Of a stretch of DNA of 64,000 nt, positions 1 to 20,658 are shown piece after piece (position 1 is the first letter of the stretch; each line of letters opens with the position of its first letter). Location: assembly GCA_022844225.1 (NCBI GenBank), contig JALHMC010000007.1, positions 1-64,000 on the forward strand, given 5' to 3'. The notes under the pieces are model-generated. The model was not told the DNA's origin. It did not search any database and saw only the letters and a list, made by a program, of their open reading frames with translations. This DNA comes from Hyphomicrobiaceae bacterium (GTDB lineage: Bacteria; Pseudomonadota; Alphaproteobacteria; Rhizobiales; Hyphomicrobiaceae). A program made the translations under genes and the position numbers.

Positions 1-173
<173 letters not shown>

Positions 174-1052
174 TGAGCTTCCTCCGAGTGACGCGGCTTC
201 GACCGCTGACGTTTCCCGGCCACACTATAGCCGATCGTAAGCTGTCGTCATGTGGACTCGCATTTTAATGGCGTTGGCGACTCCCCTGCGGGGAGCCGGC
301 CGCCAGCGCGGGGTCGCGCCAAACGCAAAAACACCGGCCCAAGGGGACCGGTGCTCTGTCTTGCTCGTGGCCGGCTCGGGCTCGCACGCCTGCCGGCGAA
401 TCCCAGTCAGCCCCGTATTGGGGGTACGAGCGGTTTGACACGCTGGACGAGCAGTCTCCAGTTCAGTGGCTCGAGCCCGCTGGTCCCTCGGGCCTGTCTT
501 CCTTCCGCAACGATCGCGTTCACTGTCACTGGCACTGGCTGCACTCGTGGATGACGGCGTGTCGGCATGGACCACTCCATCGTCGTTGAGACCTTTCCCG
601 TGCACGTCGGCGCACCACCGGCAAGCCGGCGGCACCACATCTGCGGGACATGGCCAGGTCAGGATGGGCTCGGCTGGAGCCGGAACGGTCTGGCGATCCG
701 CGACGTTCGCTCGAGCGGCCCATCCATGCCGCCGTGCTGCTCGTCTGAGGCCTGAGGCCTGGTGCCAGCATACCCTCGCCCGGTTCCCGCGAGGCGATAG
801 GCCTCGCGTCTCGACGCGGACTTTTCACGCGGGATCCGAGCGCCGATGAGCCCTTTTCCCCCGTGACGGCCTCGAAGCGGCCATGAGTGTGACAATAGTC
901 GATTCGCACGACACCCCGTTGACGCTTCAACCGGCAGTGGTGACGGGGAAGTGGGCAGGGGGACTGTGGAATGGCGTTCGATCGTCCTTGTTGTGGTCGA
1001 ATTTTACGTACACGCTTGAATGCAAATATATCGCGACCGGTGGGATAAGGCG
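174..1052. other. No convincing gene; intergenic stretch with a leftward terminator
   Basis: About 880 bases without a credible protein gene. Open frames here are Arg/Pro/Ser-rich and resemble no family I know. Two hairpins stand out near the left end: a 6-bp stem at 281-295 and the intrinsic terminator at 326-353. Nothing matching RNase P RNA, tmRNA or SRP RNA was recognised. The right part (about 960-1050) is more AT-rich and probably holds the promoter of the gene at 1053, but no clear -35/-10 pair can be assigned. Confidence 0.6.
326..353 (-). terminator. Rho-independent terminator for a leftward transcript
   Basis: On the minus strand a 6-bp outer stem (CACCGG/CCGGTG) plus an inner CCC/GGG pairing with a short loop and one bulge is followed directly by five T residues. 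This is a textbook intrinsic terminator for a transcript coming from higher coordinates. No leftward coding gene was found upstream of it before the rightward gene at 1053. Confidence 0.7.
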
Positions 1053-1583
1053 ATGCTGGGCGAATTGATCGAGGGACTCAAGACTTCTTTGCCATTGCCG
1101 TTCCACCTCGGTGCGATTGCAGTAGGAGTGGTCGGTGCCTATTCAGCCTTCCGAAAGGTCCATCGCGCCCACCTGACGTCGCTCGATGCAGAGTTGGAGG
1201 GCAAGCTATCGGAGCTGAGGGCCGTCGAACGCGAGGAAGCGCAGCTCAAAGCCGACACTGCAGCCCTCAAGAAGCAGTCTGAGAAGTTAGATGACGAGGC
1301 CCGTGTTCTTCGTACCCGCTCGGCCGAAGCCGTCTTGGAGAAGGCCGCACGCGAGCGCGAGCAGGGCAACCACGAGATCGCCGCGCGTCTGCTCGCCGAC
1401 TGGCACAAAGCCGAGGCATCAGGACTGGCTGAGGCCGCGCAACATTTGGCAAGCTGGCACGACGAAATCCTGAAGCAACGTACCGGCGACTACGACCAGA
1501 AGCTTACGGTCGAGCGCCTGCAATCGTTGGCGGAACTAGCCGCCCCCGACCTCATCAGGAAGCGGGGGGCCGTGCATGTTTGA
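1053..1583 (+). CDS. Membrane-anchored coiled-coil protein, unknown function
   Basis: 176 residues, not recognised. A hydrophobic segment (about 15-33) is followed by a long charged coiled coil (about 40-103) and then a short helical module (about 100-140) with Gly105, an AA-x-LL pattern, Trp117 and Trp135. The downstream protein has the same three parts in the same order, and the module aligns with it without gaps (both Gly-to-Trp and Trp-to-Trp distances are identical), so the two look paralogous. I prefer the ATG at 1053, just after a GATAAGG stretch; an in-frame ATG at 1020 is possible. The stop overlaps the next gene by 8 bases, which suggests translational coupling. Probable inner-membrane protein; role unknown. 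Confidence 0.75.
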   Translation: MLGELIEGLKTSLPLPFHLGAIAVGVVGAYSAFRKVHRAHLTSLDAELEGKLSELRAVEREEAQLKADTAALKKQSEKLDDEARVLRTRSAEAVLEKAAREREQGNHEIAARLLADWHKAEASGLAEAAQHLASWHDEILKQRTGDYDQKLTVERLQSLAELAAPDLIRKRGAVHV

Positions 1584-3597
1584 GACGCTGGCCGCAGCCG
1601 AAGACCTCCTTTCGATTCGACTGGACGCATGGGTAGCCATTGCCGGATTCATCGCCACTTTTTTTGGCTTGCTGAAGTTCCTCTACTTCTGGGGCCGCCG
1701 CAAACGGGATGAGCGCGCGGAGGAGATCGCCGAGACCATCGAGGAGATAGCGGCCGCCAATGGGCGACGAGCATATCTGGCATCGGACAAGGCAGCCGCC
1801 GAAAGCGCCCTTGCAACGAGCTTGGCCGCGCGCGACGCTGCCGCTCAGCAAATTGCACAACTCGCCGTCGCCGAGGCGTGGCGGCACTACAAGGCCGGCG
1901 ACACCGATCAAGCCGCCGACACGCTGCTCGGCTGGTGGGAGGGCACGCACGTCCCGACCGCCGAAGTGCACGGGCAGTTGGCCGAGTGGTACGCCATGTT
2001 CGCCGAGGCGGACGGCGACGCGCCGGACGCCATCGCAAGCGCTGAGGCGGCGCGGAAGCTGGCCCTTCGCCACTTCCTCATCGCCGAGAATCTGGCGCCG
2101 GAGGAGTGGTCCGGCCGTGCGGCAGAGCTGGCCCTGACCGGCGACCCGAGCCTCGACGCAGACGACGAACTGGAGCGGCATTTCTCGTTGCCGGTGGGGC
2201 TTGATAAAGCGTCGGCAACCCTGCTTGTCAATCGATTGATCGAGAGGTCGCAGCGCCAGCTGGTGCTCGGCCAATACTGGGCAACGTACGCGCTTGCGGC
2301 TCGCGGCAGCCTGATCGCATCGCGGGTCTTGCCGCGCTCGGAGTTGTATCTGAAGTGCGAGCATCGCCGAGCCGTCGCTCTCCGGTTTGCGGGGCATCTC
2401 AAGCAGGCGCTGCCCATCGCCCAGACGACCCGCGACGCCCAGACGGCGCACCCAGATCTCGGTGCTAACCATCCCGACACCCTCGGCAGCGGCTATCTGC
2501 TGGCTCAGATTCTCCATGATCTCGGCCACAGCGACGAGGCGCTGCCCATCGCCCAGACTACGCGGAAAGCTATGATGGCCCACCCTGATCGCGGCGCCGA
2601 CCATCCCGACACCCACGTCAGTGGCGTGCTCGTGGCGCAGATCCTCAATGAACTCCGCCGCAGCACCGACGCACTGCCCATCGCCGAGACGACCCGAGGA
2701 GCTCTGACGGCCACCCTCGGCGCCGGCGATCCCAATACTCTCCTCTGCGGCTTTCTCGTGGCGCAGATCCTCCGCAACCTCGGCCGCAGCGACGAGGCGC
2801 TTCGCACCGCCAAGGACACTTGGGACGCCACGACGCTCCACCTCGGCCCCGACCATCCCCACACTCTCCTCAGCGGCGTTCTCGTGGCCCAAATTCTCGG
2901 CAACTTCGGCCGCAGCGACGAGGCGCTGCCCATCGCCCAGGACACCTGGAAGGCCATGACGGCCCACCCCGCTCTCGGCGCCGACCATCCCGACACCCTC
3001 GCCTGCGGCGCTATGGTGGCGCAGATCCTCCGCGACCTCGGCCGCAATGCCGAGGCGCTGCCCATCGCCCAGACGACCCGGGAGGCCCTCACGGCCCACC
3101 TCGGCGCCGACTATCCCGACACCCTCGCCTGCTGCGCTCTGGTGGCGTCCATCCTCAGCAACCTCGGCCGCGACGCGGAGGCCCTGCCCATCGCCCAAGA
3201 CACTTGGGTGGCCAGGAAGGCCCACCCCGATCGCGGCGCCGGGCATCCGTCCACCCTCGCCAGCGGCATGATCGTGGCACAGATCCTCAGAAACCTTGGC
3301 CGCAACGATGAGGCCCTGCCCATCGCGCACGCCACCTGGGAGGCCATGACCGGCGCCGACCATCCCGAAACGATCGCCAGCGGCGGTCTCGTGGCGCAGA
3401 TCCTCCGCGACCTCGGCCGCAACGTCGAGGCGAGAACAATCGCGACGAACGCGCTCGCTATTGCCGTCGAGTCCCTGGCTGAGACTCACCCCGTTCGCCG
3501 CGATCTCGCGGCGTTCGTGGCGAGCCTCGATGCAGTGGCTACAGAGACCGCACCTCAGACGCCTCCCACACCCAAGGACCAGTCACTCGTCGCGTGA
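1576..3597 (+). CDS. Membrane-anchored TPR-repeat protein (kinesin light chain-like repeats)
   Basis: 673 residues. Order of parts: a transmembrane helix (about 17-39), a coiled coil (about 41-98), a short module with Gly108, Trp120 and Trp138 that matches the preceding protein, a helical linker, then eight tandem 39-44-residue TPR units (about 278-620) and a decayed ninth. Each unit carries a core like A-L-P-I-A-Q, a G-A-D-H-P-D-T-L turn and a V-A-Q-I-L-x-x-L-G-R helix. Such repeats are typical protein-binding surfaces. The C-terminal TPR array is likely cytoplasmic or periplasmic depending on topology, which I cannot decide. No enzymatic domain was seen. It overlaps the upstream gene by 8 bases, so the two products probably act together. 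Confidence 0.85.
   Translation: MFETLAAAEDLLSIRLDAWVAIAGFIATFFGLLKFLYFWGRRKRDERAEEIAETIEEIAAANGRRAYLASDKAAAESALATSLAARDAAAQQIAQLAVAEAWRHYKAGDTDQAADTLLGWWEGTHVPTAEVHGQLAEWYAMFAEADGDAPDAIASAEAARKLALRHFLIAENLAPEEWSGRAAELALTGDPSLDADDELERHFSLPVGLDKASATLLVNRLIERSQRQLVLGQYWATYALAARGSLIASRVLPRSELYLKCEHRRAVALRFAGHLKQALPIAQTTRDAQTAHPDLGANHPDTLGSGYLLAQILHDLGHSDEALPIAQTTRKAMMAHPDRGADHPDTHVSGVLVAQILNELRRSTDALPIAETTRGALTATLGAGDPNTLLCGFLVAQILRNLGRSDEALRTAKDTWDATTLHLGPDHPHTLLSGVLVAQILGNFGRSDEALPIAQDTWKAMTAHPALGADHPDTLACGAMVAQILRDLGRNAEALPIAQTTREALTAHLGADYPDTLACCALVASILSNLGRDAEALPIAQDTWVARKAHPDRGAGHPSTLASGMIVAQILRNLGRNDEALPIAHATWEAMTGADHPETIASGGLVAQILRDLGRNVEARTIATNALAIAVESLAETHPVRRDLAAFVASLDAVATETAPQTPPTPKDQSLVA
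2407..3480 (+). repeat. In-gene tandem repeats encoding TPR units
   Basis: Eight complete units of roughly 117-132 bases plus a degenerate ninth lie head to tail inside the TPR gene. Conservation is visible at DNA level (for example GCGCTGCCCATCGCCCAG recurs in several units), so homogenisation or recent duplication is likely. Unit length varies by whole codons because a two-residue insert comes and goes before the G-A-D-H-P turn. Confidence 0.85.
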
Positions 3598-3620
3598 AGG
3601 CACTGGCGTTCACCCACCCC

Positions 3621-5060
3621 TCACTCTCCCCGATCCACCGCGCGCGGCTCGAAGACGGTGCCGGCGAAGGATTGGAGGTCGTGCCAGTGGTGGGTGAGGT
3701 CGGAGGCGAAGAGGCCGCGGGTGATGCCGGATACGAGCTTGGGCACGGCGATGTTCATCGCGTTGATGGAGCAGCCGAACGGGCCGAAGCTCATGGTCGT
3801 GGCGATGGTGAAGTCGTGGATGTCGGCGAGGTGGGGGGCGGTTCCCGGAACGCGTTCGACGAAGGCGCCGTCCGGGGCGTGATAGGGGAAGCGGGCGAGG
3901 CGCGGCTCGGCCTCGTCGGGCGGCGGTGAGTAGCGGTCGCCCCAGGTCGCGACGTGGGCGGCGATGGAGGCGAGTTCCGGTCGGCGCGCGAGATCGATGT
4001 CGATGCCCGTGCCGCAGATCAGGAAGTCGGCCTCGAACGGGCCTTTCGTGGTGGTGATGCGCACGCGATCTCCGCCCACGTCGGCACCCGTCCAACCGGC
4101 GCCGCGATGGATCGTGAAGTTGGCGTGGCGGCACATGCGGTCGTAGGTCTCTTGCGGGAAGCTCTCGCGGAGCGACAGGATGTGGCGCATGAAACGCCAG
4201 CGCCAGTCGTCGGGCATCTCGCCGATATGGCGGAGGAAGCCCGCGAACGTGAGCCAGAGGTAGGGCTGCACGCGCTGCAACTCCGGGCGGCGGACGAACA
4301 TGTGCACGCTCTCCGCGCCGGCCTCAAGGGCCGTTGCGGCATTATCGGCGGCGGAGGCGCCCTGTCCGAGGACGGCGACGGTCTTGCCTTTGAGCGCGGT
4401 GAAATCGATGTCGGCGTCGCAGGTGGCGCGGAAGCGTTCGGGAAGGGCCTCGATAAAGTCCGGCATCCACCAGCGGCCCATGCCGTCCTGGCCGGTGGCG
4501 AGGACGAGCTTGCGGGTGAGCAACTGCTCTGTGCCTGCGGGTGTCGTGACGGTGAGGCAGAGGCCGCCGCCAGGGAGGGGCGCGAAGCCGGTCAGCGCGG
4601 TGTCGTTTCGCACGGGCAGATCGAGCACACGGCGATACCAGGCGAGATAGGCGTTCCAGTCCTGCTTCGGAATGCGCCCCAGCGTGGCCCAGGATTCGGC
4701 GCCGTACGTCGCCTCGTGCCACGACTGATAGGTGAGGCTCGGCAGCCCCAGATCCGGCCCGGTGAACTCCTTCGGCGACCGCAACGTCGGCATGCGCGCG
4801 TACTGCACCCAGACGCCTTCGCCGCCGGCCGGTGCCCTGTCGATGACGACGATGTTGGTGACCTGCTCACGACGTAGCGCGTGTGCGATGGCAAGGCCGC
4901 CCTGTCCGGCGCCGACGATGACGACGTCGTGCATGGGACGGCCGTCAGGGCTCGTTCTGGTGGGCATCCAGGTACGGGCGGGGTGGGCGATGCGCGCGAG
5001 GTCGTCGCGAACGCGGGCCTCTAGGGCGAGCAGGGCGGGGGACGGCGGCCGTTCGATCAT
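3621..5060 (-). CDS. FAD/NAD(P)-binding monooxygenase-like protein
   Basis: 479 residues. An N-terminal extension of about 43 residues precedes the FAD-binding Rossmann motif G-A-G-Q-G-G (about 50-55). An A-T-G motif follows at about 188-190, and a second dinucleotide-binding motif G-Q-G-A-S-A (about 232-237) should bind NADPH. This two-Rossmann layout is that of class B flavin monooxygenases and related flavin-dependent oxidoreductases. The characteristic BVMO fingerprint was not found, so N- or S-oxidation, or a non-monooxygenase role, is equally possible. It lies convergent to the TPR gene and upstream of DUF1285 on the same strand, but the 67-base gap gives no strong sign of a shared job. 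Confidence 0.8.
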   Translation of the reverse strand: MIERPPSPALLALEARVRDDLARIAHPARTWMPTRTSPDGRPMHDVVIVGAGQGGLAIAHALRREQVTNIVVIDRAPAGGEGVWVQYARMPTLRSPKEFTGPDLGLPSLTYQSWHEATYGAESWATLGRIPKQDWNAYLAWYRRVLDLPVRNDTALTGFAPLPGGGLCLTVTTPAGTEQLLTRKLVLATGQDGMGRWWMPDFIEALPERFRATCDADIDFTALKGKTVAVLGQGASAADNAATALEAGAESVHMFVRRPELQRVQPYLWLTFAGFLRHIGEMPDDWRWRFMRHILSLRESFPQETYDRMCRHANFTIHRGAGWTGADVGGDRVRITTTKGPFEADFLICGTGIDIDLARRPELASIAAHVATWGDRYSPPPDEAEPRLARFPYHAPDGAFVERVPGTAPHLADIHDFTIATTMSFGPFGCSINAMNIAVPKLVSGITRGLFASDLTHHWHDLQSFAGTVFEPRAVDRGE

Positions 5061-5127
5061 CCGTCATCGATGGCAGACCGCTCAATGGTCAGCAAGTTGA
5101 CGGAACAGCGCTGCCCGACGGCCCCCC

Positions 5128-5697
5128 TCAACCCTCCATCACGTAGAAGTGACCGTTGCTCCAGATGCCAAGGCGTCCGCTGTCGTCGGTGACGGCAAGC
5201 TCGACCAGATCATAGTAGAGCGCGCGCGTAACCAGGGCCTCGAGACGGCCGCGGACGAGGAGATAGGGTTTCAGGCCGCCGCTGCCGGCCTCGGTCTCGA
5301 AGCGAAGGGGATGGTCCGGCCCGCAGGCGACGACGTCGTCGACGTTGGTGCGGAAGACGAGCGCCTGCTCGGGACCAGTGCCGGAGACCTCCATCTCGAC
5401 GGCCAGGAACGGCGCGTCCTCGACGGCGATATCGATCTTCTCGACCGGCGTGACGAGGTAGAAACGGTCGTCGACGTCGCGGCGGAGCACGCGCGAAAAC
5501 AGCCGCACCAAGGGTTTACGGCCTATGGGGCTGTTCTGGTAGGTCCACGTTCCGTCGCGGCGGATCGCCATGCCGATATCGCCGCAGTAGGGCGGATTCC
5601 AGCGCTCGACGGGCGGCAGGCGGTCGCCGGCCTGGGCCTTGAGCAAGGCCTCAAGCCCACTCAGCCCCGATGATGGACCCACCTCGCCGTCGCTCAT
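5128..5697 (-). CDS. DUF1285 domain-containing protein
   Basis: 189 residues, matching the DUF1285 family in length and sequence character (W-N-P-P-x-C-G-D-I-G-M-x-I near the start, then V-T-P-V-E-K and a C-terminal Y-D-L-V-E). Structures of the family show a two-domain fold of unknown function. In many alphaproteobacteria the gene sits, as here, divergently next to the moxR operon. I chose the ATG at 5697 because a GAGAGG ribosome-binding sequence lies about 8 bases before it; an upstream ATG at 5736 would add 13 unlikely residues. Confidence 0.85.
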   Translation of the reverse strand: MSDGEVGPSSGLSGLEALLKAQAGDRLPPVERWNPPYCGDIGMAIRRDGTWTYQNSPIGRKPLVRLFSRVLRRDVDDRFYLVTPVEKIDIAVEDAPFLAVEMEVSGTGPEQALVFRTNVDDVVACGPDHPLRFETEAGSGGLKPYLLVRGRLEALVTRALYYDLVELAVTDDSGRLGIWSNGHFYVMEG

Positions 5698-5857
5698 CGT
5701 GCAGCCTCTCTTTTCGGCACTTCGGTGCCGGCACATTACTCATGATTAATATACCCGGGTTCCACGGGCCTGCTATGCTGTCAACACGTTCACATTCTGA
5801 ACACTTTCGGGCATTCCCTGTTCCTGATCGCCCCGGAGCCAGCGTATAGATGAGCGC

Positions 5858-6865
5858 ATGAGCACAGTCATCGAGACAGACCACGACATCGTCGCCCGCG
5901 TCGAGGCGGCCGGCGAGCGGATCCAGAGAGTCCAGAAGGCCGTCGGCACCGTCATCTTCGGGCAGGAGGAGGTGATCGAGCGCACGCTCATCACGATTCT
6001 TGCGGGCGGGCACGGTTTGCTGGTCGGCGTACCGGGCCTCGCGAAGACGCTGCTGGTCGAGACGCTCGGGCGAACGCTCGGGCTCGACGCCAAGCGCATC
6101 CAGTTCACGCCCGACCTGATGCCTTCCGACATCATCGGCTCGGAGGTGCTCGAGGACCAGGGTGGCGCGGCGGGCGCGCGGCGCAGCTTCCGGTTCATCA
6201 AGGGTCCGATTTTCGCTCAGCTGCTTATGGCGGACGAGATCAATCGCGCCTCGCCCAAGACGCAGTCGGCGCTGCTGCAGGCGATGCAGGAGCACCACGT
6301 CACGGTCGCGGGCCAGCGGCACGACATTCCAGCGCCGTTCCATGTCCTCGCGACCCAGAATCCGCTGGAGCAGGAAGGCACCTATCCGCTGCCGGAAGCG
6401 CAGCTCGACCGGTTCCTGCTCGAGATCGACGTCGGCTATCCCGGCGAGGCGGCCGAGCGACGCATGCTGTTCGCGACGACCGGGACCGAGGAGCGCCGGC
6501 TCGAGGCCGCGCTGACGGCTCAGGAGCTGATGGGCATCCAACGGCTGGTGCGCCAGATTCCAGTCCCCGACAAGGTGGTCGAGGCGATCCTCAAGCTCGT
6601 TCGCTCGGCGCGCCCGGGCACCGGTGCCAGCGCCGATGTCGACCGCCTCGTAGCGTGGGGTCCGGGACCGCGCGCGAGCCAGGCATTGATGCTCGCCGTG
6701 AGGGCCAAGGCCCTGATCGACGGCCGCTTGGCGCCGTCCGTCGATGACGTGCTCGCTCTGGCGGAGCCCGTCCTGAAACACCGCATGGCGCTGTCGTTCG
6801 CAGCGCGGGCGGAAGGCGAAAGCATGGCCGGCGTGATCGGCCGCCTGGCTTCGACCGTAACTTGA
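5858..6865 (+). CDS. MoxR family AAA+ ATPase
   Basis: 335 residues, the usual MoxR length. Walker A is G-V-P-G-L-A-K-T (57-64), Walker B is L-L-M-A-D-E (about 122-127), and sensor 1 lies in L-A-T-Q-N-P-L-E-Q-E-G. MoxR ATPases act as chaperone-like remodelers, usually with VWA or DUF58 partners, in maturation of metalloenzymes or cell-envelope stress responses. It is the first gene of a four-gene operon and overlaps the DUF58 gene by four bases. The partner identities point to the widespread but poorly defined MoxR/DUF58/DUF4159 system rather than to methanol dehydrogenase maturation. Confidence 0.93.
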   Translation: MSTVIETDHDIVARVEAAGERIQRVQKAVGTVIFGQEEVIERTLITILAGGHGLLVGVPGLAKTLLVETLGRTLGLDAKRIQFTPDLMPSDIIGSEVLEDQGGAAGARRSFRFIKGPIFAQLLMADEINRASPKTQSALLQAMQEHHVTVAGQRHDIPAPFHVLATQNPLEQEGTYPLPEAQLDRFLLEIDVGYPGEAAERRMLFATTGTEERRLEAALTAQELMGIQRLVRQIPVPDKVVEAILKLVRSARPGTGASADVDRLVAWGPGPRASQALMLAVRAKALIDGRLAPSVDDVLALAEPVLKHRMALSFAARAEGESMAGVIGRLASTVT

Positions 6866-7914
6866 AGGCGGACCGGGACCAGCGCGTGACAACAGGCGAT
6901 CGCGACAGGGCCAGTGCAGGCCAGAAGGGTTGGGCGGGGACGAGCGTGCGCGGTCTCGAGGGCGAGGCGCACAAGCTTGCCGACCGCCTGCCCGAGCTGG
7001 TCCTCGATGCCATGCGGATCTCCAGCACGGTCGCGCACGGGATTCACGGTCGCCGGCGCGCCGGTCCGGGCGAGACGTTCTGGCAGTTCCGTCAGCTCGG
7101 TGCGCTCGATGCCGCCACCTCGATCGACTGGCGGCGGTCGGCGAGTTCGGACACGCTTTTCGTCCGCGAGCGCGAATGGGAGGCGGCCCACACCGTGTGG
7201 CTTTGGCCGGATCTTTCCGTGTCGATGAATTTCAAGAGCCACCTGTCGACAATCACCAAGCGCGACCGTGCCGTCGTTCTGGCGCTGGCCGCAGCCGAGT
7301 TGCTGGTCGCGGGCGGCGAGCGGGTCGGTTTGCTCGGGTTGACGCGACCGACGGCGGCTCGGCGCGCCGCCACGCGTCTCGCTGAATCGCTGGTGCTGCA
7401 TGGCGATAAGCCGGAAGCGACGCGGAGCCTGCCCCCGGAGGTTCGCCTCGCGAGGTTCTCAGGCGCGATCCTGATCAGCGATTTCCTGGACCCGATCGAG
7501 ACGATCGCGGCGCGGCTGAGAGCCATTGCCGGGACGGATGTGTCCGGGCATCTCGTGCAAGTGCTCGATCCTGCCGAGGAAACATTGCCCTACGACGGAC
7601 GGGCCGAGTTTGTCGGACCGGAAGACGGCGCGCACTGGATCGCGGACCGCGCGGAAAGCCTGCGGGAACGCTATCAGGCGAAGCTCGCGGCGCATCGCGA
7701 GGCGCTGGCCGATGTGGCGCGGCGGCTCGGCTGGACGCTGCTCATCCATCATACTGACAGGCCGGCGTCGGAGCCGCTGCTTGCGCTCGCGATGCGCCTC
7801 AGAGGGGACGCGGCCGGCTATCGTATCACGTCGCCAGTCCAATCAGCCCTACCGCGCGACGGTGCGGACAAGGCGACGCCGTCAGGTTTCGAGCCGAGGG
7901 ACGGTGCAGCATGA
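6862..7914 (+). CDS. DUF58 domain-containing protein
   Basis: About 350 residues. The typical DUF58 region begins with R-x-G-x-G-E-x-F-W-Q-F-R (about 60-75) and continues into a VWA-like fold with D-W-R-R-S near 85-92. DUF58 proteins are the standard partners of MoxR ATPases. The overlap with moxR suggests a TTG start at 6862; a GTG at 6886 is an alternative. The stop overlaps the next ATG (ATGA at 7911), so the two proteins are probably made in a fixed ratio. Likely cytoplasmic or membrane-associated; no signal peptide. Confidence 0.9.
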   Translation: MKADRDQRVTTGDRDRASAGQKGWAGTSVRGLEGEAHKLADRLPELVLDAMRISSTVAHGIHGRRRAGPGETFWQFRQLGALDAATSIDWRRSASSDTLFVREREWEAAHTVWLWPDLSVSMNFKSHLSTITKRDRAVVLALAAAELLVAGGERVGLLGLTRPTAARRAATRLAESLVLHGDKPEATRSLPPEVRLARFSGAILISDFLDPIETIAARLRAIAGTDVSGHLVQVLDPAEETLPYDGRAEFVGPEDGAHWIADRAESLRERYQAKLAAHREALADVARRLGWTLLIHHTDRPASEPLLALAMRLRGDAAGYRITSPVQSALPRDGADKATPSGFEPRDGAA

Positions 7915-10826
7915 GCCTCGGAGCCCTGGCGTTCCTCAATCCGGCCCTGCTCGGTGCCCTGGCTCTGCTGCCGGTGATCTACTGGCTGCTCAGAACGGTG
8001 CCGCCGCGCCCGCAACGGATTTCGTTCCCTGCGACGCGGATCCTGGTCGGCATCGAGAACCGCGAGAAGACGCCCGCAAAGACACCGTGGTGGCTGACGC
8101 TGATCCGCATGCTGGCGGCCGCGTTCGTCATCATGGCGCTGGCCGAGCCGGTTCTCAATCCGAACCGCGAGGGAGCCTTGAAAGGCTCCGGTCCGGTGGT
8201 GCTCGTGGTCGACAACGGCTGGTCGGCGGCGAGCCGCTTCAACGACCGGCTCGGTCTCGTCGACCGGCTGATCGGTGAGGCCGAGGCGCAGAGCCGGCCC
8301 GTCATGCTCGCCCAGACGGCACCGCCCGCGCGAACGCAGACGCTTCGGGTCGAGGCTCCGGCAGCCGCGCGCTCGACGGCTGCCGCGCTCATCGCGCAAC
8401 CGTTTGCGCCCCGGCGGCGAGAAGCTGCCGAGCAGATCGGGCGAGCGATGGCCGGACAGAGCAACGCGACGATCGTGTGGCTCTCCGACGGCATCGACCA
8501 TGACGATGAGGCTGGCGCCTTTGCCAATCGGCTCGCGGAGCTTTCGGGCTCTGGTGGAGCGTTCGTCGTCGTCCAGCAGCCGTCCGGGCAAGAAGCGTTG
8601 GGCGCGGCGGCTGGTCTCGGCCGCGACGGGCGTCTCGAGGTCACGGTGCTGCGTGCCGGAGGGCCCGCACAAAACGGCATGGCTCTCGCATATTCGGCGC
8701 GAGGACAACGGCTTGGTGAGGTGCCGTTCTCGCTGTCCGCCGGGGGCACGAGTACGACTGCACCTTTCGCGCTGCCGCTGGAGCTCAGAAATCAGGTCAC
8801 CCGTGTCGAGTTGGCGGGCGAGCGCTCAGCGGGCGCGGTGCATCTTCTCGATGCGCGCTCACGCTGGAATCGAATCGCGCTGATTTCAGGTGAGAGCCGC
8901 GAGCAGGCGCAGCCCCTTCTCGCGCAGCTTTATTATCTCGATCGCGCCCTCGGCCCCTTCTCGGAGTTGGTAAAGCCCGGCAAGGCGAACCTCGACGAGG
9001 CAACGCGCGATGCGTTCCGCCAGAACGTGTCGGTCATGATGCTGGCCGACATCGGCACACTTGCCGGCGATCTCGAGGGCGAGGTCGATCGTTGGGTGAA
9101 GAAGGGCGGCGTTCTGGTGCGGTTCGCGGGGCCACGCCTCGAAAAGGGTGGCGATGCGCTGCTGCCGGTAGCACTGCGCGTTGGCGGTCGCGCTCTCGGC
9201 GGCGCGCTCTCGTGGTCGACGCCGCAGCCCCTGGCGCCGTTCGATGAGACGAGCTTGTTCGCAGGGCTCGAGACGAAGCCCGAGATCACGGTCAACCGGC
9301 AGGTTCTGGCCGATCCCGGCGCACTCGGGGCCGACGTCGAGATCTGGGCTCGGCTCAAGGACGGCACGCCGCTCGTCACGGCAAAGCGACATGGCGAGGG
9401 ACGCATGGTGTTGTTCCACATCACAGCGAATTCGGATTGGTCGAACCTGCCGCTGTCGGGGCTTTTCGTCGACATGTTGCGGCGCATCGCGACACTCGGC
9501 CAGCCGGGTGGCGTCGCTGCCGGCGGTGTGACGGTGGCGGCCAGCGCCGATCAGGCGCAGCCGGCACTCGCGAGCAACGCGGAAGTGCTGACACCACGAC
9601 AAGTGCTCGACGGCTACGGCGTGCTCCGCTCCCCGCCGGCCACCGCTCAGCCGATCGAGGCCAGTCGCATCGCCACGCTGGTGCCGGGTGTCGAGCATCC
9701 GCCGGGCTTCTATGGCCCGGAGGCCAGTCCGCGCGCGCTCAACATTCTCGGCGCGAAATCCGTGCTGAAGCCACTGCCGGCACTTCCCGCCAAAGCCGAG
9801 CGGCGCGCCTATGAAGGCCAGACTGCCGAGCCGTTGAAGCCCACACTTTTGGCGCTGGCCCTCGGTTTGCTGCTGCTTGATATCCTCGCGGTCCTGTTGC
9901 TGCAGGCGGGACCGTTCTGGCGACGTAGGCGCCCAGCTGCCGCGGCGCTCGCCTGCCTTGCCGTGCTGGGACTCGCGGCGATCTCGCCAACGCCGGCGTC
10001 AGCTCAACGTTTCGGAGATCCGCCGCTCGAGGGCGCACGCCGACCGCTGCCGCCGAACATGCCGCGGGATCTGCAGATTGCGATCCAGTCGACGGGACGT
10101 GTGACGTTCGGCTACGTGCTCACGGGAGAGCCACAGGTCGACGAAGCGAGCCGTCAGGGACTCGCCGGGCTCGCCAAGGTGCTCCAAGCGCGGACCGCCG
10201 TGGAGCCGGGCGAGGCATTCGGCGTCAATATCGTGACCGACGAAATCGCATTCTTCCCGATCCTCTATTGGCCTATCGTCGCCAGCGCCAAGCCGCTCGG
10301 CGATGCGACGCTCGCAAAGATCGACGCCTACATGAAGCAGGGCGGCATGATTGTCTTCGACACCCGCGACTATGGGCAGGGCGTGCCGACCGGACAGCGT
10401 CTCGGCCGTGAGGAGGGCACCCCACTCCAGCGGCTCCTCGGGCGCCTCGACATTCCACGTCTAGAGCCGGTGCCGGAAGGCCATGTGATGACCAAGGCGT
10501 TCTATCTCATGCGGACTTTCCCAGGCCGATGGGACGGTGGGCAGCTCTGGGTGGAAGCCGAGAGCGCGGAGGACAAGGCTAACCCGGGCCGGCGGGCTCG
10601 GCGGTCGGACGGGGTGAGTTCGATCCTGGTCACGTCCAACGACCTGGCTGCGGCCTGGGCGCTCGACGACGCCAACCGACCGATCTACCCGACCGTGCCC
10701 GGTGGGGAGGTGCAGCGCGAGCAGGCGTTCCGCACGGGCGTCAACATCGTCATGTACGCGCTGACCGGCAACTACAAGGCGGATCAAGTGCACGTGCCCG
10801 CGCTCCTCGAGAGGCTCGGTCAGTGA
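7911..10826 (+). CDS. BatA-like N-terminal / DUF4159 C-terminal membrane protein
   Basis: 971 residues. The N terminus has the BatA/aerotolerance-regulator pattern: a hydrophobic helix (about 10-28), a P-x-R-I-x-F-P-A-T-R segment and a second helix (about 62-80). A VWA-like domain and a long extracytoplasmic region follow, then two helices around 645-700 and a C-terminal DUF4159 domain (about 725-970), which resembles a glutamine amidotransferase-like fold. Both families recur together downstream of moxR and DUF58. The protein probably spans the inner membrane several times and carries large periplasmic domains. Function is not established; cell-envelope maintenance is an inference from the family. 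Confidence 0.88.
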   Translation: MSLGALAFLNPALLGALALLPVIYWLLRTVPPRPQRISFPATRILVGIENREKTPAKTPWWLTLIRMLAAAFVIMALAEPVLNPNREGALKGSGPVVLVVDNGWSAASRFNDRLGLVDRLIGEAEAQSRPVMLAQTAPPARTQTLRVEAPAAARSTAAALIAQPFAPRRREAAEQIGRAMAGQSNATIVWLSDGIDHDDEAGAFANRLAELSGSGGAFVVVQQPSGQEALGAAAGLGRDGRLEVTVLRAGGPAQNGMALAYSARGQRLGEVPFSLSAGGTSTTAPFALPLELRNQVTRVELAGERSAGAVHLLDARSRWNRIALISGESREQAQPLLAQLYYLDRALGPFSELVKPGKANLDEATRDAFRQNVSVMMLADIGTLAGDLEGEVDRWVKKGGVLVRFAGPRLEKGGDALLPVALRVGGRALGGALSWSTPQPLAPFDETSLFAGLETKPEITVNRQVLADPGALGADVEIWARLKDGTPLVTAKRHGEGRMVLFHITANSDWSNLPLSGLFVDMLRRIATLGQPGGVAAGGVTVAASADQAQPALASNAEVLTPRQVLDGYGVLRSPPATAQPIEASRIATLVPGVEHPPGFYGPEASPRALNILGAKSVLKPLPALPAKAERRAYEGQTAEPLKPTLLALALGLLLLDILAVLLLQAGPFWRRRRPAAAALACLAVLGLAAISPTPASAQRFGDPPLEGARRPLPPNMPRDLQIAIQSTGRVTFGYVLTGEPQVDEASRQGLAGLAKVLQARTAVEPGEAFGVNIVTDEIAFFPILYWPIVASAKPLGDATLAKIDAYMKQGGMIVFDTRDYGQGVPTGQRLGREEGTPLQRLLGRLDIPRLEPVPEGHVMTKAFYLMRTFPGRWDGGQLWVEAESAEDKANPGRRARRSDGVSSILVTSNDLAAAWALDDANRPIYPTVPGGEVQREQAFRTGVNIVMYALTGNYKADQVHVPALLERLGQ

Positions 10827-10905
10827 TGGCGGCAGGCCGTACAATGCGACGCGACGGCTGCATCACGATCGACCACCGTGGATTGGCTCGTGAATGGAGT
10901 GAGCG

Positions 10906-13038
10906 TTGAACTGGTCCATCGACATCCAGCCGATCATACCCGCGCCGCTCTTCTGGGCCGCGATCCTGGTCGCTGCCGCGCTCGTCGCGCTGCTGGTTTG
11001 GCGCCGCACACGCGGGGCCAGTCTGCGTGCGCTTTCCCTCCTCGCGCTGATCGCCGCGCTCGCCAATCCGACGCTCCGACAGGAGGAGAGGGAAAGCCTC
11101 TCCAACATCGCGATCGTCGTCACGGACGAGTCGACCAGCCAGACCATCGCGGGACGACCGGCGCAAACAGCCGCTATCCGAGCCGATCTCGAGGCCAAGC
11201 TCGGAAAGGTGCCGAATCTCGAAGTCAAATGGGTTTCCTCGTCTCGGCCGACCGGTGAGGGGACGTCGGGCACCCATGTCTTCGCCGACCTCAATCGCGC
11301 CCTCGCCGACGTCGCGCCAGATCGATTGGCCGGGGTCATCACGATCACCGACGGACAAGTGCACGACGTTCCACAGGCGGTGGGTGCACTCGGCTTCGAC
11401 GCGCCCGTGCATGCCCTCCTGACCGGCCGTCCAGACGAGTTCGATCGCCGGATCGAAGTTCTGAAAGCGCCTAAATTCGGCATCGTCGGGCAAGCCCGCG
11501 AAATCGAGATCGCGGTCCGCGAGACGGGTCGCCGCGGGCGCTCCGGCAACGAGCAGGTTTCGCTCAAGATCCGCCGCGAAGATGCCCCTGACGAAACTCG
11601 CCGCGCCCGCATCGACGAGAAGCTGCGCCTTCCGATGCGATTTCCACACTCGGGCACCAATATCGTGGAGATCGAGCTCGAGCCTGTCGATGGCGAGCTG
11701 ACGGCGGCGAACAACCGCATCGTCGTCGCGGCCGAGGGGGTGCGCGAGAACCTGCGCGTGCTGCTCGTCTCGGGCGAACCGCATGCCGGCGAGCGAACAT
11801 GGCGTAATCTGCTCAAGTCGGACGCGGCCGTCGATCTGGTCCACTTCACCATTCTGAGGCCGCCCGAGAAGCAGGACGGAACCCCGATCCATCAGCTCTC
11901 GCTGATCGCATTTCCGACTCGCGAGCTGTTCTCGGAGAAGATCAGGGATTTCGACCTGATCATCTTCGACCGCTACCAGCACCGGGGCATCCTGCCGCTG
12001 CTCTACTACGACAACATCGCGCGCTACGTGGAGCGGCACGGTGGTGCGCTTCTGGTGGCCGCGGGCGACGATCTCGCTGGTCGGATGAGCCTTTCCCGGA
12101 CGCCGCTGCAGTCGGTGCTGCCTGTGGTGCCGTCGGGGCGTGTGATCGAGCAACCGTTCAAGGCAGCCGTCGATGGCGACGGTCTGCGACACCCGGTGAC
12201 GCGTGGGCTCCCCGGCGCGGGCGCGGCAGGGGCCGAGGCCAGTTGGGGCCGCTGGTTCCGCCAAGTAGAAGTTGAGCGGCGACGCGGTCGCACGTTGATG
12301 ACGGGGGCCGAGCAGAAGCCACTCCTCGTGCTCGATAGGATGGGCAAGGGTCGCGTTGCGCTGCTGACCTCGGATCACGCGTGGCTCTGGGCCCGTGGCT
12401 ATGACGGCGGCGGCCCGCATACCGATCTCCTGCGGCGGATCTCGCACTGGCTGATGAAAGAGCCGGATCTCGAGGAGGAGCGTCTCCTGGCATCGGCGCG
12501 TGGGCTGAAACTTTCAGTGGAGCGGCGATCGATGGAGGCCAGGGTGCCGCCGGTCGTCGTGTCGGCGCCCGGTGGCGAGACCACAAGTGTGACGTTGGAC
12601 CCATCAGCAGACGGCGTCTGGCGCACCACGATCGACGTCAAGACACCCGGCCTCTACAAGGTCGAAACGCCGACGCCCGACAATCAGGGCAAGCTCACGG
12701 CCGTGGCGCATGCCGGCATCGAGGACGCCCGCGAGATGAGCGAAGTGACGGCGACCGACCAGAAAATGAAGGGCTTGGTCGAGGCGACCGGCGGTGGCGT
12801 CTACTGGACGCGCGGTGGCGGCCTGCTCGGGACAGTCTCGGCAACGGCGGTCGATGTGCCGCGGGTGTCGATGCTGGCCAACGCGCGGGTGCTATCGGGC
12901 TCGGGTTGGCTCGGTCTCAAGGATCGCGAGGCGCATGTCACGCGCGGCGTATCCCTGACCCCGATGTTCTCCGGCCTGCTCGCGCTTGCTGCGCTGCTCG
13001 CCTTCATCACGCTCGCGTGGTGGCGAGAAGGGCGGTAA
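10906..13038 (+). CDS. Large membrane protein of the MoxR/DUF58 cluster (glutamine amidotransferase-like)
   Basis: 710 residues with two N-terminal hydrophobic helices (about 8-26 and 34-50), a long soluble middle and one C-terminal helix (about 685-705). The middle includes a region with D-L-I-I-F-D-R-Y and G-G-A-L-L-V-A-A-G, as in the class I glutamine amidotransferase-like domains of this cluster. The start is a TTG at 10906, seven bases after GGAG. It is the last gene of the moxR operon, separated by 79 bases from the DUF4159 gene. Family membership is fairly sure; no activity can be assigned. Confidence 0.82.
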   Translation: MNWSIDIQPIIPAPLFWAAILVAAALVALLVWRRTRGASLRALSLLALIAALANPTLRQEERESLSNIAIVVTDESTSQTIAGRPAQTAAIRADLEAKLGKVPNLEVKWVSSSRPTGEGTSGTHVFADLNRALADVAPDRLAGVITITDGQVHDVPQAVGALGFDAPVHALLTGRPDEFDRRIEVLKAPKFGIVGQAREIEIAVRETGRRGRSGNEQVSLKIRREDAPDETRRARIDEKLRLPMRFPHSGTNIVEIELEPVDGELTAANNRIVVAAEGVRENLRVLLVSGEPHAGERTWRNLLKSDAAVDLVHFTILRPPEKQDGTPIHQLSLIAFPTRELFSEKIRDFDLIIFDRYQHRGILPLLYYDNIARYVERHGGALLVAAGDDLAGRMSLSRTPLQSVLPVVPSGRVIEQPFKAAVDGDGLRHPVTRGLPGAGAAGAEASWGRWFRQVEVERRRGRTLMTGAEQKPLLVLDRMGKGRVALLTSDHAWLWARGYDGGGPHTDLLRRISHWLMKEPDLEEERLLASARGLKLSVERRSMEARVPPVVVSAPGGETTSVTLDPSADGVWRTTIDVKTPGLYKVETPTPDNQGKLTAVAHAGIEDAREMSEVTATDQKMKGLVEATGGGVYWTRGGGLLGTVSATAVDVPRVSMLANARVLSGSGWLGLKDREAHVTRGVSLTPMFSGLLALAALLAFITLAWWREGR

Positions 13039-14101: not shown

Positions 14102-15118
14102 CTACTCGCCTCGACGGGCGAGCATGCGCTTGCGCATCGCTGCCTGTGCTTCCCGCGAGCCGTCGTGGAACGTGCCGAACAACTGATCCATCGGCGCGAT
14201 AGAGCCTCCATAATTGCACTCGAAGTACTTGTGGTGGAGATAGTGGAAATAGCTGCCGCTGTCCCAACCAGAATCTTTGCCGTTCACTGTCAATTTCTCG
14301 AAGCCGCTATGGCTCATCGCAGGCAGAAACGCGGCAAGTTGGATTTGGTACAGCGCGTTTACGGGGTGCAATGCAATCAGCCACTGGACGCAGACCGTCG
14401 AGAAGTAGATCACCTGCTCGACTGGATGCATCGCCATGCCGGACCATGGCCCGACCTCGACATTCAAGTGGTGGATGCGATGAACGAACTTGTATAGCGG
14501 CCGCCAATGCAGCAAGCGGTGCGTGAAATAGAAGTGCAGCGCATGGATAACCGGCGCAAACACCAAAAGAACGACAAACCAGCACCAGAACTGCACTGAG
14601 CCTGACTCGATCGAGACAAATCCGACGTGGCCATTGGCGAACAACCAGTACGTCAACGCCTCATAGGCCGTCATGATCGGAACGGCGGTGCCGAGCGTCC
14701 GGAACACATTGTCACGAACTTGATCTCCGAACAGAAAACGCTTCGTATTTCTGGCGAAGGGCTTGTCGGAAAACCTGCGCTCGTCACCCTGTCTCGCAAG
14801 GATGTAGAAATAGAGGTGCAAACCGCCATATAATAAGAGGATTATAGCGACATTGCGCACATAGAGAAGCGCCACCCACCAGAACTCGAACGTCTTCATG
14901 GCTGACAGGTCGGGTGTCAAGAATGCCCAGGTGAAGAGCGCAATGGCGAACCAGATGCTGTTCATGGGCCACAGGTAGCCCGGGAACCCAAAAAACCACT
15001 TCGCGATGATCAGAGGACGGGGCGGCCAGGCGACGATCGGCGGCAATCTGATCGGCTCGGCTGGCCGCCAATCTCCGCTAGTATCGCGAATTGTCGTCAC
15101 GCTCTCGACAGTCATCAT
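14102..15118 (-). CDS. Fatty acid hydroxylase / sterol desaturase family membrane protein
   Basis: 338 residues with several hydrophobic helices in the first half and the three histidine clusters of the di-iron membrane hydroxylase family: H-F-Y-F-T-H-R-L-L-H, H-R-I-H-H, and H-Y-L-H-H-K-Y-F-E-C-N-Y-G near the C terminus. Family members hydroxylate or desaturate sterols, carotenoids, alkyl-glycerols or sphingoid and fatty acyl chains. The nearby PLP condensing enzyme and SDR on the same strand make a long-chain lipid substrate attractive, but that is inference. Likely an inner-membrane enzyme that needs iron and an electron donor. Confidence 0.88.
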   Translation of the reverse strand: MMTVESVTTIRDTSGDWRPAEPIRLPPIVAWPPRPLIIAKWFFGFPGYLWPMNSIWFAIALFTWAFLTPDLSAMKTFEFWWVALLYVRNVAIILLLYGGLHLYFYILARQGDERRFSDKPFARNTKRFLFGDQVRDNVFRTLGTAVPIMTAYEALTYWLFANGHVGFVSIESGSVQFWCWFVVLLVFAPVIHALHFYFTHRLLHWRPLYKFVHRIHHLNVEVGPWSGMAMHPVEQVIYFSTVCVQWLIALHPVNALYQIQLAAFLPAMSHSGFEKLTVNGKDSGWDSGSYFHYLHHKYFECNYGGSIAPMDQLFGTFHDGSREAQAAMRKRMLARRGE

Positions 15119-17295: not shown

Positions 17296-18123
17296 TCAGA
17301 GGCCGTAGGTTTTGCGGATGATCGTCTCGAAAACCCGCGAGGGTAACAGCGCCTTCAAGACGACGCCGGCCCGCTCGCTCGGCGTGCCAACCACCGCACG
17401 CACGGGCAATGAGCGCCGCGCGAGCAGCTTCAGCACCGCCTTGGCGATTACGTCGGGCTTTCTCGCTTCTCGCACGGCCTTGTCATAGGCGCCGACCGTC
17501 GCCTTGAAGCGTCGATGATAAACGGAGCTGGAGCCCGTCCGTTCGCCTTCGATCTGGTTCGCCGAAATGTCCGTCTGAATATCGCCCGGGTGCAGCACCG
17601 TCGCCTCGATGCCGAAGGGCGCGATCTCGACCCTCAGCGCCTGTACCATACCGTCGAGTGCAAATTTCGATGCCGAATAGTGACCGATGAACGGGAGACC
17701 GATCAGGCCGCCGATGGAGCCGACGACGATGATGCGGCCCTTGCCCGCCTGCCGCATGGCTGGCAGCACGGCCTGGAGCACACGGATGGTGCCAAGGTAG
17801 TTGGTTGCGAGCTGGCGCTCGGCTTCAGGAATGCTGACGTCCTCGATCGAGCCGGCGACCGAGATGCCAGCGCAGTGCACGAGTAAATCGATCCGCTGCT
17901 CGGCGCTCAACACCGAGCCCACCGCAGCTTCGACGGAGACATCCGAGATCACGTCGAGGGGGATGGGCGTCCACGCGGAAGGCTGTGTAACCGACGCGGC
18001 AGCGCGGCGACTGGCGCCGTAGACCCTCCAGCCGACGGAGGCCAAGCGGTCTGCGACCGCTTGGCCAATCCCTGACGAGCTGCCGGTGACGAGTGCGACG
18101 CCGACGCGCTCGCTAGCCGCCAT
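17296..18123 (-). CDS. SDR family NAD(P)-dependent oxidoreductase
   Basis: 275 residues, classical short-chain dehydrogenase. The cofactor motif T-G-S-S-S-G-I-G lies near residues 14-21, the structural N-Y-L-G-T motif in the middle, and the catalytic Y-S-A-S-K (Tyr and Lys) near 150. A Ser upstream of it (G-S-I-G-G) completes the triad. It sits between the serine palmitoyltransferase-like gene and the thiolase-like gene on the same strand, so reduction of a 3-keto long-chain product is plausible, as 3-ketosphinganine reductases are SDRs. Substrate is otherwise open. Confidence 0.87.
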   Translation of the reverse strand: MAASERVGVALVTGSSSGIGQAVADRLASVGWRVYGASRRAAASVTQPSAWTPIPLDVISDVSVEAAVGSVLSAEQRIDLLVHCAGISVAGSIEDVSIPEAERQLATNYLGTIRVLQAVLPAMRQAGKGRIIVVGSIGGLIGLPFIGHYSASKFALDGMVQALRVEIAPFGIEATVLHPGDIQTDISANQIEGERTGSSSVYHRRFKATVGAYDKAVREARKPDVIAKAVLKLLARRSLPVRAVVGTPSERAGVVLKALLPSRVFETIIRKTYGL

Positions 18124-18186
18124 AGCTGTCCCTCGAAGTTGAGGACGTCGGGCACGCCAGGGAAGCCGATAGGCTTCCCTGGGCGA

Positions 18187-19473
18187 TCAGAGTTTCGCCA
18201 TTTCGGCAGCGGTCACGTCGAGCGCCTGCTTGATTTGAGCCTCGGTGTGCGCCGACGTCAGGAAGAAACGCAGACGACCGGCTTTGAGCGGCACGCCCGG
18301 GTAGATGATCAGCGACGGGTTGACGCCGCCAGCGAACACACCGTGCCAGAGCTTGACGGCCTTCAGCACGTCGCCGGCGATCACCGGCATCATGCCGTAG
18401 CCGCGGCAAATGCCCGTGTTCAGTCCGCGCTCCTTAGCCAGGCTGAGGAAGAGCTGACCGTGCGAATGGAGCTTCGCCACGCGCTCCGGCTCGGCCTTGA
18501 TGATGCGCAGGCCGGCCAACGCTGCCGCCGTCATCGCAGGCAACAGGCCCACGGAGTAGACGAAGCCCGGAGCGGTGTGCTTCAGGACGCTGATCAGGTC
18601 GCTGTTACCGGCGATGTAGCCGCCGCATGAGGCCAATGTCTTCGACAGCGTGCCCATCCAAATGTCGATCTTACGGGCATCGACGCCGGCATGCTCGGCG
18701 ATGCCACGGCCCGTCTTGCCGAGAACGCCGAGACCGTGCGCATCGTCGACCATCAGCCACGACCCGAAGCGCTCCTTCAGCTCGATCGCGCGGGGCAGAT
18801 CGGTGACGTCGCCTTCGGTCGAGTAGAGGCCTTCGATGATGACGAGGCAGTTCCTGTGCTTGGCGCGCTCGCGCTTCAGGATGGCCTCGAGCTGATCGAA
18901 GTTGTTGTGAGGGAAGTTGATCGTTGTGGCGCGCGAGAGGCGCATGCCGATGACCGCGCTGTTGTGCACGAACTCATCGTGAATGATGAGGTCGTCCTCG
19001 GTCATGATCGAGCCAATCGTCGACACGTTGGCAGCATGACCACTGACGAACAGAAGCGCTGCATCGACACCCAAGAACTCGGAGATCTCGCGCTCGAGTT
19101 CGTGATGCAACGGCGTCTCACCGGCTACCATGCGGCTTGCCGACGTGCACGGGCCGAAGCGGTCGATCGCGTCCTTCATCGCCTGCGCGACGGCGGGCTC
19201 CTGGTTCAGACCCAGGTAGTCGCACCAGGCGAAGTTCAGCTTCTCCTCGCCCTTGATGGTCGTGAAGTTGCCGTGCGCCTCTTCGATGGTGCGGAAGAAC
19301 GGCGACTTGACGCCGAACATGTTCCCGACCGATTCCCAGTTCTTAAGGGATTTGTAGGCCGGCAGGTCCGAGAACTTGCTCCCCGGATAGCTGGCGACCT
19401 CACCCTCGGCCCGGGAGCCGCTCCACTTGCCGACAGTCGCAGCCAACCTTTTGTTCCAGGACGTTGTTGCCAT
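18187..19473 (-). CDS. Alpha-oxoamine synthase family PLP enzyme, serine palmitoyltransferase-like
   Basis: 428 residues. The fold-type I aminotransferase signature is complete: D-D-A-H-G-L-G (Asp243, His246) and the PLP lysine in G-T-L-S-K-T (Lys278). The family (AONS, KBL, ALAS, SPT) condenses an amino acid with an acyl thioester. An N-terminal stretch of about 70 residues before the core and the S-P-F-F-R-x-I segment resemble bacterial serine palmitoyltransferase-like proteins more than BioF. The ATG at 19473 follows AAGAGGAA; a longer reading upstream lacks support. With the SDR and membrane hydroxylase downstream it could start a sphingolipid-like pathway, but other aminoketone products are possible. 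Confidence 0.85.
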   Translation of the reverse strand: MATTSWNKRLAATVGKWSGSRAEGEVASYPGSKFSDLPAYKSLKNWESVGNMFGVKSPFFRTIEEAHGNFTTIKGEEKLNFAWCDYLGLNQEPAVAQAMKDAIDRFGPCTSASRMVAGETPLHHELEREISEFLGVDAALLFVSGHAANVSTIGSIMTEDDLIIHDEFVHNSAVIGMRLSRATTINFPHNNFDQLEAILKRERAKHRNCLVIIEGLYSTEGDVTDLPRAIELKERFGSWLMVDDAHGLGVLGKTGRGIAEHAGVDARKIDIWMGTLSKTLASCGGYIAGNSDLISVLKHTAPGFVYSVGLLPAMTAAALAGLRIIKAEPERVAKLHSHGQLFLSLAKERGLNTGICRGYGMMPVIAGDVLKAVKLWHGVFAGGVNPSLIIYPGVPLKAGRLRFFLTSAHTEAQIKQALDVTAAEMAKL

Positions 19474-19970
19474 TCGTTCCTCTTGCCGACGCGATACCGG
19501 GGCGTGTGCTCGCGGCCTCATTCAAATTGAGACGCTGCCTACACGCTCCATTCAAGACGTATGCCGTTGCCAACGGAGCTGATAGCCCCCGGGCACGGTA
19601 AATTGCCGACCCTCAACGGGTCACTAACACCCGCAGGCGAACTGACAGGCAAATCGCGTTTTGATAGAAGGTTAACAACGCCGTAGACGGGCACTGTGCC
19701 TTCGCCTCTACCTGTTGCCGCCCGCAACGCACTCACGCTGGACACTCCGAACCGCAAACGCGCGGCCGCTGAAGGTGGACGAGCGGACACACCGCTACAT
19801 CACGAGATGTACGGATCGATCGCCAGACGATTTTGGGGATGTAGTGACAGTGCTCGTGATCCGCAAAGGGGCGCGACATCTTGGACCTCTCCCTTCGATC
19901 AGGAAAAAAGCATCCGAGAACGAGCAACAACTTGCACAACACGCGGTGGACTTCAGCGGATCGGAAGTCG
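19474..19970. other. Intergenic region between PLP enzyme and tRNA-Glu, no gene seen
   Basis: About 500 bases, more AT-rich than the flanking genes. It should hold the promoter of the leftward PLP enzyme gene. No convincing coding frame, repeat or RNA fold was recognised. Confidence 0.5.
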
Positions 19971-20046
19971 TGGCGCCCCGTAGGGGTTTCGAACCCCTGT
20001 TCCCAACGTGAGAGGCTGGTGTCCTAGGCCACTAGACGAACGGGGC
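19971..20046 (-). tRNA. tRNA-Glu (anticodon CTC)
   Basis: 76 nucleotides with an encoded CCA end. The acceptor stem GCCCCGT/ACGGGGC, D arm, a 5-bp anticodon stem (CCAGC/GTTGG) and a T arm with GGTTCGAAACC all fold well. The 7-base anticodon loop CTCTCAC places CTC at positions 34-36, reading GAG codons. The 5' part (GTCTAGTGGCCTAGGACACC) is typical of bacterial tRNA-Glu. Confidence 0.95.
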
Positions 20047-20178
20047 AGCGCCGCTGTCGTATAGGGAAGTGTCACGCAGGTGGCAAGCACTCTCTTGAAC
20101 CGTCTGAACCGTCGATACTGACGGTCAAGAGGGGTGATTTCAGAGCAGAGCGGATGGGGGCGCATCGCGCAGCTGCGA

Positions 20179-20568: not shown

Positions 20569-20658
20569 CGCTTGCTCTGAGATCCTGTCGCTTGTGCGGC
20601 AGCTGCATTTTCATCCCTCGCCGCCACACCGCGCGGCACTGCGAAGGCGGCTCGGGTC

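Follow-up and report, generated by a model that had tools for sequence, protein, structure and literature searches.

Two overlapping genes predicted to encode a membrane-anchored, kinesin-light-chain-type TPR protein and a TPR-less paralogue

Near the start of the Hyphomicrobiaceae DNA analysed here (a stretch of 64,000 nt, hereafter the window), two plus-strand genes overlap, raising the question of whether their products are related and what a membrane protein ending in TPR repeats would do beside a partner that carries none. The window begins at base 1 of its contig, in an assembly of 4.37 Mb and 82 contigs. The original prediction had placed the overlapping pair at 1053-3597, which was right: the genes occupy 1053-1583 and 1576-3597, both on the plus strand, with an alternative ATG for the first gene lying upstream at 1020. 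The frames overlap by 8 bases, the ATG of the second gene lying within the end of the first, and no promoter or terminator consensus was detected in 850-3750. The products, of 176 and 673 aa, are referred to as the short and the long protein, and the predicted parts of the locus are:

1053..1583, plus strand: short gene; TM helix near residues 15-33, then a charged stalk of helix (34-99), the module (91-135) and a tail ending at residue 176
1323..1493, plus strand: module of the short protein, 57 residues; invariant in four proteins are A8, A20, W27 and W45
1576..3597, plus strand: long gene; TM helix near residues 20-38, then a stalk of helix (39-102), the module (94-138), a helical part that diverges (about 145-275) and a KLC-type (kinesin-light-chain-type) TPR array
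1855..2025, plus strand: 57-residue module of the long protein
2404..3426, plus strand: eight tandem TPR repeats of 39-44 residues each (residues 277-617, plus a divergent end)
999..3616, no strand: segment missing at the syntenic site of a congener (G002); contains both genes and little else

The long protein carries the tandem TPR_10/TPR_12 repeats of ~42 residues by which KLC-type TPR proteins are recognised. It matched PF13424 (TPR_12) at 71.6 bits and PF13374 (TPR_10) at 46.6 bits, both above the Pfam cut-offs, and its repeats match one another at 73-77% as DNA. The best PDB sequence match was KLC1 (6.4e-8), the structures matched being those of kinesin light chains and of a fungal protein related to them, and KLC2 was the first fold match of a single-sequence model of which the TPR part alone is fairly confident. 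Pfam, PDB sequence and fold matches thus agree on the kinesin-light-chain-like array that had been proposed. For the short protein, nothing in Pfam exceeded the cut-off.

Whether the short protein is a paralogue of the N-terminal part of the long one, as the original prediction held, was examined by pairwise comparison. The distances on which that claim was built, 12 residues from Gly to Trp and 18 from Trp to Trp, are identical in the two proteins (G105-W117-W135 in the short, G108-W120-W138 in the long), a spacing common to both members in 0.4% of shuffled pairs. The motif said to precede the first Trp in both, AA-x-LL or similar, is present in the short protein (AARLL) but not exactly in the long one, where the LL lies one residue off (AADTLL). 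Short residues 86-145 aligned to long residues 86-150 with an SW score of 49, compared with 26.4 +/- 4.9 for shuffles (fraction 0.001). In gapless alignment of residues 1-140 a single offset, +3, was outstanding. Its score of 33 (next best, -21) was equalled in 0.02% of 5000 shuffles, counting every offset within 15, when letters were permuted separately within TM, stalk and module. Taken by region at +3, the module score was reached in none of 5000 shuffles, whereas the fractions were 0.035 for the stalk and 0.16, not significant, for the TM helix, so of the parts claimed to be common the module is the firm one, the stalk is suggestive through this one register and the TM helix adds little. 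BLASTP between the two proteins gave nothing significant (best E 0.69, off-register; in-register piece, E 3.5). The likeness of the short and long proteins is confirmed as real, beyond chance.

Relatives were found with profiles of the N-terminal parts. In 148 genomes, a two-row profile returned the own pair and one other place, in G135 (E 2.8e-5), and in 385 genomes of the class a three-row profile returned the own pair and G470 (E 1.5e-5); multiplied by the genomes searched, these E-values come to ~0.004 and ~0.006. The two relatives are:

L067:2531-4960: relative in G135, 809 or 816 aa by the start chosen; TM helix, charged helix, module, TPR array
L074:289-1752: relative in G470, 487 aa; TM helix, stalk, module, TPR array

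Both matches continue into a KLC-type TPR array, though the profile queries had none, and these arrays matched PF13424 at 8e-118 (G135) and 4.9e-28 (G470). By architecture as much as by E-value, the two would seem to be convincing relatives of the long protein, with the same order of parts, module position and Trp spacing. In single BLASTP comparisons the G135 protein matched the long protein at E 2e-5 and the short one at E 6e-4. All four proteins have a TM helix within residues 15-43, a module beginning at residue 86-94, and W27 and W45, the family definition having been drawn from these same four. Among 121 genomes around G135 the profile returned only G135 itself. Weak profile matches in G164 and G176 (E 0.002 and 0.008; 385 genomes) were rejected on reading, as were three beside G470 in a search of 107 genomes around it; twenty G470 congeners among those listed were without its gene.

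A short partner was seen beside the long gene only in the window. None lies beside the G135 gene within 2.5 kb upstream or 0.4 kb downstream, and on the G470 contig 288 bases precede the gene, limiting the view of its neighbourhood. Genome-wide, with profiles that included the short module, no second module match was detected in G135 (84% complete) or G470; the one match in each was the long protein itself, so neither genome shows a short partner. The original prediction had looked for the two-gene arrangement to recur among homologs, and so far it is found only here.

The module was examined by profiles from which members were left out. With a profile of the three long modules, the short protein ranked first after the profile's own members (22.4-22.6 bits, E 1.4e-5) among 2941 ORFs, comprising those of the window and of the loci collected; next, at 18.2 bits, came a chance ORF which a related profile had retrieved. 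The bare short module scored 26.2 bits, and none of 20,000 shuffles reached 22.4 (best 16.2). None of the three TPR arrays or five plasmid TPR proteins rose above 0.1 bits, and the module is therefore no generic TPR. Profile searching had been named as a way to see the two N-terminal modules fall into unrelated families, and they did not. The profiles that retrieved G135 and G470 contained the short row, so the likeness of these two to the short module is partly selected for. Other combinations performed less well: with a profile of short, G135 and G470 modules, the long protein scored 12.9 bits (E 0.012) and was outranked by two chance ORFs (18.1 and 13.4 bits); one of G135 and G470 gave the short protein 20.2 and the long protein 8.7 bits; and with one of long and G135, the short protein reached 13.7 bits, less than the 14.4 of one chance ORF. 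With a single-sequence profile of either window protein, the other was absent among the best 12 matches listed. Judged by these scores, the long module of the window appears to be the outlier, the most weakly linked of the four.

The four modules align over 57 columns without a gap, and the consensus combines the invariant A8, A20, W27 and W45 with VLxKAxxExxxGN. In G470 a Glu replaces the Gly before the turn; the 12-residue Gly-to-Trp spacing is accordingly found in three of four modules and the 18-residue Trp-to-Trp spacing in all four. Identities among the modules are low (9-15 of 57), and the short module (15/57 to G470, 13/57 to long, 13/57 to G135) is no closer to its neighbour than to the others, which argues for an old divergence: gapless register and profile results point to paralogues, and the two are old ones, the short gene being no recent copy of the gene beside it. 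Unlike BLAST with the N-terminal parts, the consensus makes further members findable.

Hydrophobic peaks lie at residues 15-33, 20-38, 20-38 and 25-43 in the four family proteins, and in all four the 15 residues after the TM helix hold 3-6 K/R and the 15 before it 0-1. By the well-established positive-inside rule, this excess suggests that stalk, module and TPRs should be cytoplasmic. Heptad periodicity exceeded that of shuffles in the short protein (p 0.03) and G470 (p 0.008), and not in the long protein (p 0.31) or G135 (p 0.19); the coiled coil assigned to the long protein is therefore a weak point, and a long helix, charged and rich in Ala, describes its stalk better. Single-sequence AlphaFold2 modelling predicted, for the short protein, a helix at 15-103, a turn and a helix at 107-163 (pLDDT 92-94 at 91-110, pTM 0.43) and, for the long protein, a helix at 2-106, a turn and helices from 110 (the first at 110-124), with low confidence there. 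Outside the TPR array the long model is poor (mean pLDDT 59; residues 58-90 and 113-255 below 50). In both models the first long helix ends at the G(N/D) turn of the module.

The distribution of the pair is sporadic. By profile it was missing in all three congeners (G002 is 88% and G003 91% complete). A single contig of G002 is collinear with both window 1-998 and window 3617-3881, apart from 232 bases near 959 that the window lacks. In place of the 2.6-kb segment 999-3616 it has 48 non-aligning bases, and the two genes, both missing from this syntenic site, thus form one presence/absence unit. In G001, coxS and a non-coding stretch are followed by other genes, with no pair in the 13 kb read. 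Because the profile matched no other of the 148 genomes save G135, we favour horizontal gain over loss as the putative origin of this difference, the direction of which is not polarised. Inspection of the segment ends by eye revealed neither a target-site duplication nor an inverted repeat. Foreign composition was considered and set aside: GC3 is 0.716 for the short and 0.807 for the long gene, values that allow no firm inference beside the 0.79-0.88 of 10 of 12 other measured window genes and the 0.734 and 0.757 of the remaining two.

Other searches were negative or returned TPR likeness. BLAST with the long N-terminal part or the short protein found no relative in 149 relatives' genomes each or in plasmids, and with the long N-terminal part none among 385 genomes of the class; among the weak matches outside the own genome (six and three), the three whose ORFs were read, two of the six (L012 and L013) and one of the three (L017), were unrelated. 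Pattern-based scans found none in GTDB contigs and, for the long protein, none in IMG/VR. A full-length search of 398 genomes of the phylum, with three candidates scored per genome, gave matches at 1e-8 in 53 genomes, the own included. As none listed outside the own genome begins before residue 106, these reflect TPR likeness only. Matches were also found in 65 plasmid records and in three Wolbachia phage WO records, the latter with their best places in the TPR part; PHROGs gave one weak unnamed match, again to the TPR part of the long protein. In plasmids, nothing matched the N-terminal part of either the G135 or the G470 protein.

The surroundings of the pair hold features of their own. Between coxS and the pair, at window ~330-890 on the minus strand, lies a non-coding stretch conserved in two congeners. 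A 501-base query found it in 11 of 100 genomes, the own included (E <=0.001), of which the match in G006 was dropped as a chance match. The ten remaining sequences, from five genera of the family (besides the window, L089, L090, L091, L092, L093, L094, L095, L097 and L098), share an aligned core, a second GGCGTGTCAAACC-like element and, mostly, a GC-rich hairpin with a T-rich tail. In the candidate layout the core, GATGGAGTGG(C/T)C.ATGC, leads mostly to ACGCCGTC, the distant element GGCGTGTCAAACC can pair with it, and most sequences have a terminator-like hairpin. RNAalifold on the ten sequences paired the two elements; 4 of 22 pairs had changes on both sides and the covariation term was 0, so the structure is weakly supported. 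Rfam at gathering gave no match in the window or five of the loci (matches at a lax threshold were at chance level), and neither tmRNA nor tRNA was detected in the ten loci. By reading, the neighbouring genes differ between genera. We regard this stretch as a candidate for a so far undescribed non-coding RNA gene in the family. Further along, a desaturase-like gene (by reading) at 14102-15118 on the minus strand has a GC of 0.559, compared with 0.64-0.69 in the other measured chromosomal genes except the short gene, and was possibly acquired. In G001 (L087), a block matching window 17296-22879, with rpoH, is inverted and separated from coxS by ~3.4 kb that include an RTX-like repeat gene; the distance in the window is ~17-22 kb. 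Compared with L087, window 1-22900 thus appears to be a rearranged, variable region.

What might such a pair do? The reading that we prefer, tentatively and at slightly less than even confidence, is that of an accessory two-gene operon whose long product would serve as a TPR receptor or scaffold in the inner membrane, facing the cytoplasm, and whose short product would be its paralogous partner lacking TPRs. Each protein would be held by its N-terminal TM helix, the N-terminus being probably outside by the positive-inside rule; a long helical stalk would enter the cytoplasm and end in a helix-turn-helix module whose two tryptophans are spaced by 18 residues; and behind the long module, a KLC-type TPR superhelix may bind a partner protein or a peptide on the inner face of the membrane. 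The short protein, encoded first, would most likely join the long one through stalk and module and could determine how many TPR arms there are, how they are spaced or how active they are. The putative short-long heteromer of the original prediction remains a fair idea.

The finding of one module match each in G135 and G470 weakens this reading and strengthens another, which we consider unlikely although the strongest of its competitors: the long protein would be, like its relatives in G135 and G470, a membrane TPR scaffold encoded by a single gene, and the short gene a neutral remnant, the N-terminal part of another family member that was added here. Both relatives are long, G135 has no such neighbour, and the modules of all four proteins share similarly few residues; against a remnant speak the intact short gene, its 8-base overlap onto the long start and its retained module and heptads. 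Less probable again is an anti-phage or conflict system in which the TPRs sense an invader protein, the TM-stalk module of both proteins acts as an effector that, once clustered, damages the membrane or depolarises it, and the short protein is an effector-only subunit. The sporadic occurrence, with absence from all three congeners and from the G002 syntenic site, would suit such a role, as would the five plasmid TPR proteins scanned with Pfam, in which the KLC-type array follows NB-ARC (one), a protein kinase (one) or sub-cut-off AAA_16 or NB-ARC matches (three). Conflict systems with a membrane-spanning segment and C-terminal TPRs are also described (PMC7159879). Yet neither the pair (E up to 1) nor the two relatives (0.001) matched PADLOC, the eight neighbours scanned gave one weak match, MoxR to an AAA model (18.4 bits), and the pair has no NTPase, nuclease, TIR or other effector domain.

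Two further explanations have little in their favour. The first is chance likeness between two Ala-rich helical membrane proteins that are not paralogues; it would account for the lack of a significant pairwise BLASTP match and for the leave-one-out profiles that rank chance ORFs above the missing member, but is very improbable given the shuffle and profile tests and the relatives with the whole architecture. The other, which we rate lowest of all, makes the pair the third component of a vWA-MoxR type system. It was raised because a close run of genes at 5858-13038, by translation reading a MoxR ATPase, a DUF58 protein and two large BatA-like membrane proteins, begins 2.3 kb from the pair, and because subsystem 4 of PMC7159879 has a membrane-spanning protein with C-terminal TPRs. 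G002, which aligns with window 5858-10399, keeps this operon (L028 against window 4375-10399, 87%) while its syntenic site lacks the pair, and two opposite-strand genes separate pair and operon in the window. A bolder extension of the preferred receptor reading, doubtful and placed below the conflict system, is that the W-18-W module marks an unnamed alphaproteobacterial family of membrane-tethered, cytoplasm-facing KLC-type TPR receptors that are mobile as cassettes, and that this locus encodes the two-component form, in which a TPR-less and a TPR-bearing subunit on a common stalk make up an NTPase-free membrane sensor, possibly immune.

Several known systems resemble parts of the pair. In the full-text literature, judged by title and start of abstract and with most subscription papers outside its reach, no description of the layout was found. 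LapB/YciM has an N-terminal TM anchor with cytoplasmic TPRs, as the long protein is predicted to have, but ends in a rubredoxin-like part and is not known to have a paralogous partner. ZapG/YhcB (DUF1043) resembles the short protein in its N-terminal TM helix and helical remainder, but DUF1043 did not match the short protein in Pfam at E up to 1. NF040586, the NCBIfam model of the FxSxx-COOH system TPR protein, matched residues 385-640 of the long protein at 167.1 bits, below its 300-bit curated cut-off; the TPR sub-type is the same, but no NB-ARC or other AAA NTPase, the kind of domain that precedes the TPRs in STAND/NB-ARC sensors, matched from Pfam or NCBIfam across the 673 aa at E up to 1. 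The TPR domains of KLC1 and KLC2, with ~42-residue repeats, resemble the long protein in sequence and fold and are likewise preceded by a helical stalk, a coiled coil in KLC; the long protein differs in being bacterial and membrane-anchored and in its W-18-W module, and presumably has no kinesin to serve. Bacterial KLC-type TPR arrays are best known behind NTPases, a setting in which they are interpreted as sensors. A membrane-anchored form that recurs with a module of its own, and here with a TPR-less paralogue in one operon, would mount the same binding surface differently.
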